Assembly: GCA_036381035.1 (NCBI GenBank)
Contig: DASVDQ010000021.1
Location: forward strand, 1 to 64,000
Length of the DNA stretch: 64,000 bases
Reading direction: 5' to 3'
From: Trueperaceae bacterium
GTDB lineage: Bacteria > Deinococcota > Deinococci > Deinococcales > Trueperaceae
In this document: positions 19,835 through 50,817 of the stretch, piece by piece
Numbering within the stretch: position 1 is the first letter of the stretch
Layout of the letters: each line of letters opens with the position of its first letter
Program-made: the position numbers and the translations under genes
Notes under the pieces: generated by a model
Seen by the model: only the letters and a program-made list of their open reading frames with translations
The model's database searches: none
Told to the model about the DNA's origin: nothing

Positions 19835-19861
19835 GGGGCGGCGCCCGTCGGGCGCCGCCCC
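19835..19861 (+). terminator. Hairpin terminator after ABC transporter operon
   Basis: A perfect 12-base-pair stem (GGGGCGGCGCCC with its complement) around a GTC loop lies 22 bases after the binding-protein stop. It is followed by CGCTCTAT, only weakly T-rich. Confidence 0.75.
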
Positions 19862-43841: not shown

Positions 43842-43848
43842 TGTGGGC

Positions 43849-45084
43849 GTGCGACTCGACAGGCTGCACAGCTACCTGACGCGGTTCGAGACCACGGTGA
43901 CCGCCGTCGAGACGGCGGACGGCGGCGCCTGGGTGCGCCTCGACCGCTCCGCCTTCTACCCCACGGCCGGGGGGCAGCCCCACGACACCGGGCTCCTCGC
44001 CGGGCGCAAGGTCGTGGACGTCGAGGCGCGGGGCGAGGAGGTCTGGCACCTGCTCGAGCCGGGCGAGGCGCCCGCCGTGGGCGACGCGGTGGTCGGCGAG
44101 GTCGACTGGGAGCGCCGCTACGCCCACATGCAGCGCCACACCGCCCAGCACATGCTCTCGCAGGCCTTCATGCGCGTGGGAGCCGCCCGCGGCGCGGCGG
44201 ACGAAGGCGGCGAGCCCGGCTACCACACCCGCTCGGTGAGCATGCGCGGGCCCGACTGCACCCTCGACCTCACCGGCGAGCCCGACGACGAGGCGCTTGC
44301 CGCCGCCGAGGAGGAGGTCAACGCCGCCGCCCGGCGCGCGCTGCCCGTGCTGGCGTTCGAGGTGCCGGAGGGGATGCTGAGCCACTACCGCCTGCGCCGG
44401 CCGCCGAAGGTGCGCGGCCTGGTGCGGCTCGTCGCCGTCGGCGACTACGACCTCGTGGCCTGCGGCGGCACGCACCTGAGGAACAGCGCCGAGGCGCTGC
44501 CCGTGAAGGTCATGGGCCTCGAGCGCGTGCGCGGCGGCCTCACGCGGGTGACGTTCAGGGCCGGCGCGGAGGCGCTCGCCGACCACGCCCTCAAGCACGC
44601 GGTGGCCAGCGGCCTCACGGCGCTCCTGAGCGCCCCGCCGGCCGACCACCCGGAGCGGGTGCGCGCGCTCCTCGACCGCGTGGGCGAGCTGGAGCACGAG
44701 CTGGGCCGCGCCCGCTCCCGCCTCGCCGACGGCCTGGCCGACGCGCTGCTGCGGGGCGCGCGGGACGAGCTGCCGGGCGGCGTCAGGCTCCTGGCGCACG
44801 CCCTCGAGGAGGGCGACGCGGCCCTCCTCGAGCCGCTCGTGGAGCGGCTGCAGGGCGAGCCCGCGTGCGTGTCCCTCCTCGCGTCGCGCGGGGGAGGCGC
44901 GGCGCGGCTGTCGTTCCTCGCCGGGCCGGGGGCGGACGTGGACGTGAGGCCGGCTCTCGCGGCCGCCCTCGAGGTCCTGGGCGGACGGGGCGGCGGCCGT
45001 CCGGACCGCGCACAGGGCGCCGGGCCGGACCGGGGCCGCCTGGGCGAGGCCATGGCTGCGGCCGTCGCCGCGCTGCGCGGCTGA
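43849..45084 (+). CDS. Alanyl-tRNA editing protein, AlaX-L type
   Basis: A free-standing editing enzyme that deacylates Ser- or Gly-tRNA(Ala). The 411 residues comprise an N-terminal beta barrel (SAFYPTAGGQPHDTG), the zinc-binding editing domain with HTAQHMLSQAF and the CGGTH motif, and a C-terminal DHHA1-like part after a coiled-coil (residues about 265-300). GTG 43849 is chosen because TACTCT (43836-43841) lies seven bases upstream; the earlier in-frame start falls before the promoter. Confidence 0.9.
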   Translation: MRLDRLHSYLTRFETTVTAVETADGGAWVRLDRSAFYPTAGGQPHDTGLLAGRKVVDVEARGEEVWHLLEPGEAPAVGDAVVGEVDWERRYAHMQRHTAQHMLSQAFMRVGAARGAADEGGEPGYHTRSVSMRGPDCTLDLTGEPDDEALAAAEEEVNAAARRALPVLAFEVPEGMLSHYRLRRPPKVRGLVRLVAVGDYDLVACGGTHLRNSAEALPVKVMGLERVRGGLTRVTFRAGAEALADHALKHAVASGLTALLSAPPADHPERVRALLDRVGELEHELGRARSRLADGLADALLRGARDELPGGVRLLAHALEEGDAALLEPLVERLQGEPACVSLLASRGGGAARLSFLAGPGADVDVRPALAAALEVLGGRGGGRPDRAQGAGPDRGRLGEAMAAAVAALRG

Positions 45085-45129
45085 GCCCGTCACCGCATCT
45101 CATCGCCGGCCCGCCTACCGTGCGGTGAG

Positions 45130-45153
45130 GGACGCGGACCCGGGTCCGCGTCC
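45130..45153. promoter_or_regulatory. Perfect 24-bp palindrome in the dps leader
   Basis: The half-site GGACGCGGACCC is followed directly by its exact complement. It lies nine bases downstream of a possible -10 element (TACCGT, 45116-45121) and seven bases before the GGGAGG ribosome site, so it would start near the transcription start. It is either an operator for a dimeric regulator or a cruciform/hairpin controlling translation. Confidence 0.6.
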
Positions 45154-45165
45154 GTGGGAGGCGAC

Positions 45166-45675
45166 ATGGCGACGAAGACCGGGGCCAAGCAGGAGAAGCT
45201 CTTCGCCACGCGGATCGACCTGCCCGAGGAGGAGCGCGGCGCGCTGGTGGCGCTCTGCAACCAGATGCTGGCCGACACCTTCGACCTCTACTCGCAGGCG
45301 AAGCAGGCGCACTGGAACGTCAAGGGCACGGACTTCATGCAGCTCCACGAGCTCTTCGACGGCGTCGCCGAGGCCGTGCTCCCGTTCGTCGACGAGATCG
45401 CCGAGCGCGCCGCGACCCTGGGCGGGGTCGCGCTCGGCACCGCGCGCCTGGCGTCCGCGGCGTCGCGGCTCGCGGAGTACCCGGAAGGGCTGGTGGAGGG
45501 CCGGGAGCACCTCGAGGCGGTGCGCGAGCGCCTGGCCCAGTACTGCGGCGCGCTGCGCGAGGCGATCGAAGAGGCGGAGCGGCTCGGCGACCCGACGACC
45601 GTCGACCTCTTCACCGAGGCCTCGCGCGCGGCCGACCTGCAGCTCTACTTCGTCGAGTCGCACCTGCAGGGGTAG
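45166..45675 (+). CDS. dps: Dps ferritin-like DNA-protection protein
   Basis: A 169-residue Dps. It forms a dodecamer that oxidises Fe(II) with peroxide and protects DNA. Ferroxidase residues at the dimer interface are visible in AKQAHWNVKGTDFMQLHELF, plus the following Asp/Glu. A short Lys-containing N-terminal tail (MATKTGAKQEKLF) could contact DNA. ATG 45166 has GGGAGG four bases upstream, so unlike many neighbours this gene has a leader, containing a 24-bp palindrome. Confidence 0.92.
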   Translation: MATKTGAKQEKLFATRIDLPEEERGALVALCNQMLADTFDLYSQAKQAHWNVKGTDFMQLHELFDGVAEAVLPFVDEIAERAATLGGVALGTARLASAASRLAEYPEGLVEGREHLEAVRERLAQYCGALREAIEEAERLGDPTTVDLFTEASRAADLQLYFVESHLQG

Positions 45676-45768
45676 GTCTGCGCGGCGCGCGGGTGGCCGC
45701 GCCCGGTGTTCGGCCGGGACGCCCGGGTCGCCGCGCCGCGCACCGGACCGCTGCCGCTCGGCCCGCGC

Positions 45769-46188
45769 TCAGGCCTCGGCGCCGCCGCCGAACTCGTCGC
45801 GCAGCGCGCTCTGCTCCAGCACGTGCTTGGCGACGTAGACGGGCGCCTTGACGCGCACCGCCAGCGCCAGCGCGTCCGACGGACGGGCGTCGACGTCGAA
45901 GCGCACGCCGCCCCGCTCGAGGATCAGCATCGCGTAGTACGTGCCGTCGACGAGGTCGGTGACCTCGACGCGCGCGATCTGGACGCCGAGCAGCTCCAGC
46001 ACCGAGACGAACAGGTCGTGGGTGAGCGGGCGCTCGAGCTTCTCGTTCGAGCGACCCGCCGCGATCGAGATCGCCTGCATGGCGTCGATGGCGATGGGGA
46101 GGATCTCGCCTTCCCCGCTCTTCAGCAAGGCCAGGAACTGGTTCTCGTCCCCGGAGACGGCGATCTCCTCCAGCTCCACCTTGACCAT
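45769..46188 (-). CDS. Bifunctional nuclease family protein (DUF151)
   Basis: A 139-residue DUF151/BFN-domain protein, with LPIAIDAMQAISIAAG and the conserved VDARPSDALALAVRVKAPVY at the end of the domain. Plant relatives have DNase and RNase activity; the Thermotoga structure shows the fold, but bacterial function is not settled. It is transcribed divergently from gatB and has no obvious operon partner. Confidence 0.88.
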   Translation of the reverse strand: MVKVELEEIAVSGDENQFLALLKSGEGEILPIAIDAMQAISIAAGRSNEKLERPLTHDLFVSVLELLGVQIARVEVTDLVDGTYYAMLILERGGVRFDVDARPSDALALAVRVKAPVYVAKHVLEQSALRDEFGGGAEA

Positions 46189-50759: not shown

Positions 50760-50817
50760 GAGGAAGCGGCGCGCGGGCCGATGTGCCGCCCGCGCGCGCT
50801 CTCGCGTCCCCGGGCCG

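Follow-up and report, generated by a model that had tools for sequence, protein, structure and literature searches.

A perfect 24-bp palindrome in the dps leader of a Trueperaceae bacterium and its possible role as a 5′-terminal mRNA stem-loop

Results

The stretch of DNA analysed here (the window) covers 64 kb of a Trueperaceae genome of approximately 72% GC, which is available as 3.43 Mb of sequence at 96% completeness. On the forward strand lies dps (45166–45675), encoding a protein of 169 amino acids that matches Pfam Ferritin (E = 1.2e-22) and NCBIfam PRK09448 Dps (184 bits; cut-off 114) and that is the sole PF00210 match detected in the genome. The gene 5′ of dps, on the same strand, encodes an AlaX-like alanyl-tRNA editing protein that scores below the NCBIfam equivalog cut-offs (43843–45084; the start is that of our own gene finder, the open reading frame list giving 43816). 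Convergent with dps, on the reverse strand, is a gene whose product was assigned a bifunctional nuclease (BFN) domain by a domain search (45769–46188). The 81-nt gap between the AlaX-like stop codon (45084) and the dps ATG (45166) houses a palindrome on the forward strand at 45130–45153, which begins 45 nt 3′ of the stop codon and ends 12 nt 5′ of the ATG, 3 nt short of the Shine-Dalgarno sequence GGAGG (45157–45161, forward strand). A preliminary description had called it an exact 2 × 12 inverted repeat with a spacer of 0, and a sequence check confirmed that the arms, GGACGCGGACCC (45130–45141) and GGGTCCGCGTCC (45142–45153), are 100% complementary.

Leaderless TANNNT promoters are described for Deinococcota (PMC12340547). 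In the present genome the TAnnnT motif peaks exactly 12 nt 5′ of the start codon, as seen in 42 of 351 upstream regions. This position relative to leaderless starts calibrates the distance from the −10 element to +1, and the dps transcription start is therefore predicted at A45128 (forward strand). A −10 matrix built from 61 leaderless promoters of the same genome returned TACCGT (45116–45121, forward strand) as the best candidate for dps. It is a weak one, scoring 6.2 (next best 1.4) against a 10th percentile of 8.8 and a median of 12.3 in the training set, and no clear −35 element was seen with it. No −10 candidate was found between the hairpin and the dps ATG. Thus the stem, starting at 45130, would follow almost directly upon a +1 at 45128 whose prediction rests on a weak −10, and the earlier placement of the palindrome between the likely transcription start and the ribosome site is supported by this prediction and by the position of GGAGG.

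As RNA, the palindrome is predicted to form a 10-bp stem closed by a CCGG loop, with a folding energy of −19.4 kcal/mol alone, as stable a stem as a 5′-terminal stem-loop stabiliser calls for, and of −22.7 kcal/mol together with the rest of the leader. The folding z-score of the leader was only −1.36, and 21 of 200 shuffled sequences folded equally well. No Rfam match was found up to E 5 in 44900–45300, and assignment to a known structured RNA family was dropped on this basis.

How surprising the palindrome is depends on the background chosen. Under an order-3 Markov model of the window, 0.17 spacer-free palindromes with arms of at least 12 are expected per 64 kb and one was seen; for arms of at least 10 and a spacer of up to 10, 5.8 are expected and eight were seen. 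In a 732-kb sample of the genome, however, 215 tandem gaps contained 12 perfect palindromes with arms of at least 12 (spacer up to 8), a density of 0.34 per kb that corresponds to approximately 0.03 in one 81-nt gap, while the 97 divergent gaps of this sample contained none. For arms of at least 11, a 348-kb sample showed a density of 0.019 per kb within genes, compared with 0.400 per kb, about 20 times as many, in gaps; one hairpin is counted twice here (L124 and L146 overlap), a duplicate that was removed for the 732-kb sample. The earlier claim that the repeat is too long to be likely by chance therefore loses force in hairpin-rich intergenic DNA: the palindrome exceeds chance for coding sequence but is typical of the hairpins in the gaps of this genome. 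It is one hairpin among many, though its place is unusual. That it is a chance product or neutral relic in GC-rich DNA is very improbable in our judgement; the expected 0.17 per 64 kb, the density of 0.34 per kb in tandem gaps and the lack of conservation of its sequence in the family speak for this reading, against which stand its exact place between the predicted start and the Shine-Dalgarno sequence and the fact, described below, that stems recur in the leaders of four other dps genes.

The abundance of gap hairpins also bears on a second alternative, in which the palindrome, lying 3′ of the AlaX-like gene, would be an intercistronic or terminator-like hairpin that does nothing specific for dps. 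The 215 tandem gaps hold 24 perfect palindromes with arms of at least 10, many of them 6–50 nt behind a stop codon, and the 20-fold enrichment in gaps points the same way. However, the hairpin has no T-run, and a canonical terminator was rejected because no terminator-like site (hairpin followed by a T-run) was found in 44900–45900. Most other gaps between AlaX and dps genes in the family have no hairpin. Moreover, with no −10 candidate between the hairpin and the ATG, dps would need read-through to be expressed under this alternative, which we regard as unlikely.

Hairpins in a leader position, with arms of at least 9, were seen at 18 of 364 genes of the genome. Inspection showed these to be a mixed set, some of them lying 5′ of a leaderless −10 and others occupying short gaps that follow a stop codon, and the idea of a genome-wide leader-hairpin class was dropped. 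Other long hairpins occur in the window at 19835–19861 and 50769–50797, one of the two lying 22 nt behind a stop codon and the other 5′ of a −10-like TACCCT and the gene of a collagen-like (GXY-repeat) protein. In the genome sample, hairpins were also observed directly 5′ of ABC-transporter permease genes, named by eye (L132:8241, C65:1508, C12:31857 and L122:9787), three of the four being close behind the preceding stop codon.

The preliminary description had implied that a regulator responding to peroxide, iron or manganese binds here and has further targets. Throughout the genome, one other site lies within three mismatches of the 24-mer, and it is intragenic. The 16-bp core, allowing up to two mismatches, gave 19 sites, fewer than the 35 of its reversed pattern; the half-site search that had been proposed returned 17 matches for the outer half-sites compared with 56 for the reversed-pattern control. 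The near-copies checked (five loci at four places), among them the nearest core or half-site matches, were all intragenic. No further copy was found 5′ of another gene or of a regulator in this 96%-complete sequence of 3.43 Mb. For want of intergenic copies, a multi-gene regulon sharing this site as its operator was rejected, and the idea of a regulator site with other targets is left unsupported. With no regulon emerging and the nearest matches lying inside genes, the palindrome is unlikely to serve a multi-gene iron or peroxide regulator as operator. Nor did conservation come to the aid of the earlier proposal at the family level: the 24-mer is absent from the other 22 family dps leaders examined, which were drawn from a comparison family of 39 genomes with no other member of the same genus.

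Many relatives carry a different element 5′ of dps. Thirteen of the 23 family dps loci have a match within two mismatches to a Fur-type box, TCGGAATNATTCCGA, in the 200 nt 5′ of the start (173 nt for L004), whereas none of 640 genes in a sample of the present genome has one. The best match in the 200 nt 5′ of the present dps has seven mismatches, and no operator of Fur/PerR type was recognized there. The earlier remark that the half-site matches no Fur consensus is thus borne out, the box of the relatives being quite different. Nine other family dps loci, from four genera, likewise lack the box. In the present genome TCGGAATNATTCCGA sites precede the gene of a Fur-family protein of 137 amino acids (G000:C30:28376, L145), a P1B-type ATPase gene (C30:4209, L144) and an Rrf2 regulator gene followed by a cysteine desulfurase gene, named by eye (C24:209011, L143). 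No NCBIfam equivalog cut-off is reached by the Fur-family protein, for which the Irr and PerR models score best; among solved structures, Fur and PerR proteins are its nearest relatives. Together with the dps genes of the relatives, the genes preceded by TCGGAATNATTCCGA constitute a candidate iron/peroxide regulon, and the present dps appears to lie outside this regulon, which would hold more than half of its family relatives.

Lacking the box found at these 13 loci, dps could have been taken over by another regulator. Accordingly, a single-target dimeric repressor (TetR, MarR or similar) might block dps transcription by binding over its start, at the 24-bp site, and the perfect, spacer-free symmetry at the predicted start would suit such a protein. 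However, no second site was found in the genome as sequenced, even near a regulator gene, and the neighbours of dps encode the AlaX-like and BFN-domain proteins rather than regulators. Furthermore, spacer-free palindromes are not specific to operators. Among the 35 intergenic palindromes of the genome G037 whose arms reach at least 11, 15 are spacer-free, and ten of these lie behind stop codons or between convergent genes, which weakens spacer-free perfection as a mark of protein binding. We consider a private operator of this kind conceivable but doubtful. The G037 stretches (L196–L235) have an excess of perfect palindromes lacking a spacer among their intergenic hairpins. An operator-like sequence, TTGACTCTTAAGAGTCAA, was observed twice in one contig of the present genome (L121:18850–18867 and 2564–2581), the first copy adjoining a near-copy, TTGACGCTTAAGTGTCAA, 20 nt 5′ of a gene.

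To compare leader structures, a stem was scored when at least 8 bp long and starting 10–16 nt after TAnnnT, a rule set after cases had been seen. The 27 dps loci counted comprised the 23 family loci and four from other families of the order, leaving out L027 (a fragment), L028 (a weak match), G074 and G078. A stem was present in the same leader place at five of the 27, compared with 13 of 886 other genes (4/358 in the present genome, 2/212 in G006 and 7/316 in G037), giving by this post hoc criterion a Fisher p of 1e-4, or 1e-3 without the discovery locus. In addition to the present dps, the stem-bearing loci are those of G006 (a 9+2+9 palindrome), G005 and G018 (a 10-bp stem with a 5-nt loop in both, these two being of one genus) and G037 (a perfect 34-bp palindrome). 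Apart from the same-genus pair, the five stem sequences are unrelated; four other dps leaders carrying stems of unrelated sequence would lend indirect support to structure over sequence. The G037 palindrome reaches about 4 bp 5′ of the predicted start, which an RNA function alone would not need. Five further dps loci from another family of the order (L238–L242), scored for perfect palindromes with arms of at least 7 rather than by the exact stem rule, yielded none, and the proposition that long 5′ stems are general to dps in the order failed here. For 5 of 33 loci the Fisher p is 2.7e-4, a total in which L025 is counted twice (again as L237), so that 32 are distinct. Most of the 23 Trueperaceae dps leaders have no long stem.

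Discussion

Taken together, the palindrome is most likely a modest, fairly ordinary control element of a known kind, a stem-loop that probably acts on the stability or translation of the dps message. With moderate confidence, based on sequence and predicted folding, we read it as encoding a 5′-terminal stem-loop of the dps mRNA. Transcription would start at approximately A45128, producing a message of two unpaired bases followed by the GC-rich stem and its loop, then the Shine-Dalgarno sequence and the start codon. A stem-loop in this place would hinder attack on the 5′ end, both RppH-type conversion and 5′–3′ exonuclease digestion by RNase J, and the dps message would therefore live longer; it may also limit ribosome loading. 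The lack of a regulon for the 24-mer and the recurrence of stems of unrelated sequence in other dps leaders speak for this reading; against it stand the weak −10 candidate, the folding z-score of the leader, the post hoc stem rule with two of its cases from one genus, the lack of long stems in most Trueperaceae dps leaders and at L238–L242, and the upstream reach of the G037 palindrome. We infer in this way the transcription start, the stabilising effect and any stress response of the leader. The genome encodes an RNase J homologue (539.9 bits against a cut-off of 400), and 5′ hairpins are known to protect mRNA in E. coli and B. subtilis (PMC3997798, PMC7509114). No paper on this dps leader was found among the open-licence PMC papers listed.

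Known 5′-terminal stem-loop stabilisers (E. coli ompA and papA, and the 5′ hairpins of B. subtilis) resemble the dps leader in having a stable stem at, or within a few nucleotides of, the 5′ end, here a predicted one, and a strong Shine-Dalgarno sequence after it. Unlike the ompA type, dps has just one perfect palindrome, which lies right against its ribosome site, and its transcription start is a predicted one; the ompA leader is also longer. Fur-family operators (PerR, Fur and Zur boxes) are of the 7-1-7 type. The relatives carry such a box, TCGGAATNATTCCGA, in their dps promoters, whereas the 24-mer is 12-0-12, GC-rich and located 3′ of the −10 candidate. Control of dps through its 5′ leader has a counterpart in E. 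coli, where CsrA binds the dps leader, as stated in portions of PMC6686035. In contrast, the present genome (96% complete) gave no match to CsrA (PF02599) at E ≤ 0.001, and a CsrA-controlled leader was rejected.

A broader scenario, which we offer tentatively and think unlikely, is that in this lineage dps left the Fur-type peroxide/iron regulon to which it belongs in sister genera and that its expression passed to a sequence-free 5′ stem-loop keeping the message long-lived, an arrangement that would have arisen repeatedly with unrelated sequences in the dps genes of stress-resistant Deinococcota. If this were true, message stability would have replaced a metal/peroxide repressor in the control of a key stress-protection gene within one bacterial family, and a long-lived dps mRNA would be predicted. 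A by-product of the analysis is the candidate Fur-type dps regulon of Trueperaceae with its box, which is directly testable. Among 80 dps loci sampled more widely, five (L085, L087, L090, L092 and L099), all titled Acidobacteria or Pyrinomonadaceae, are preceded by a similar palindrome of the type TTAGAATTATTCTAA, which we take to resemble PerR boxes.
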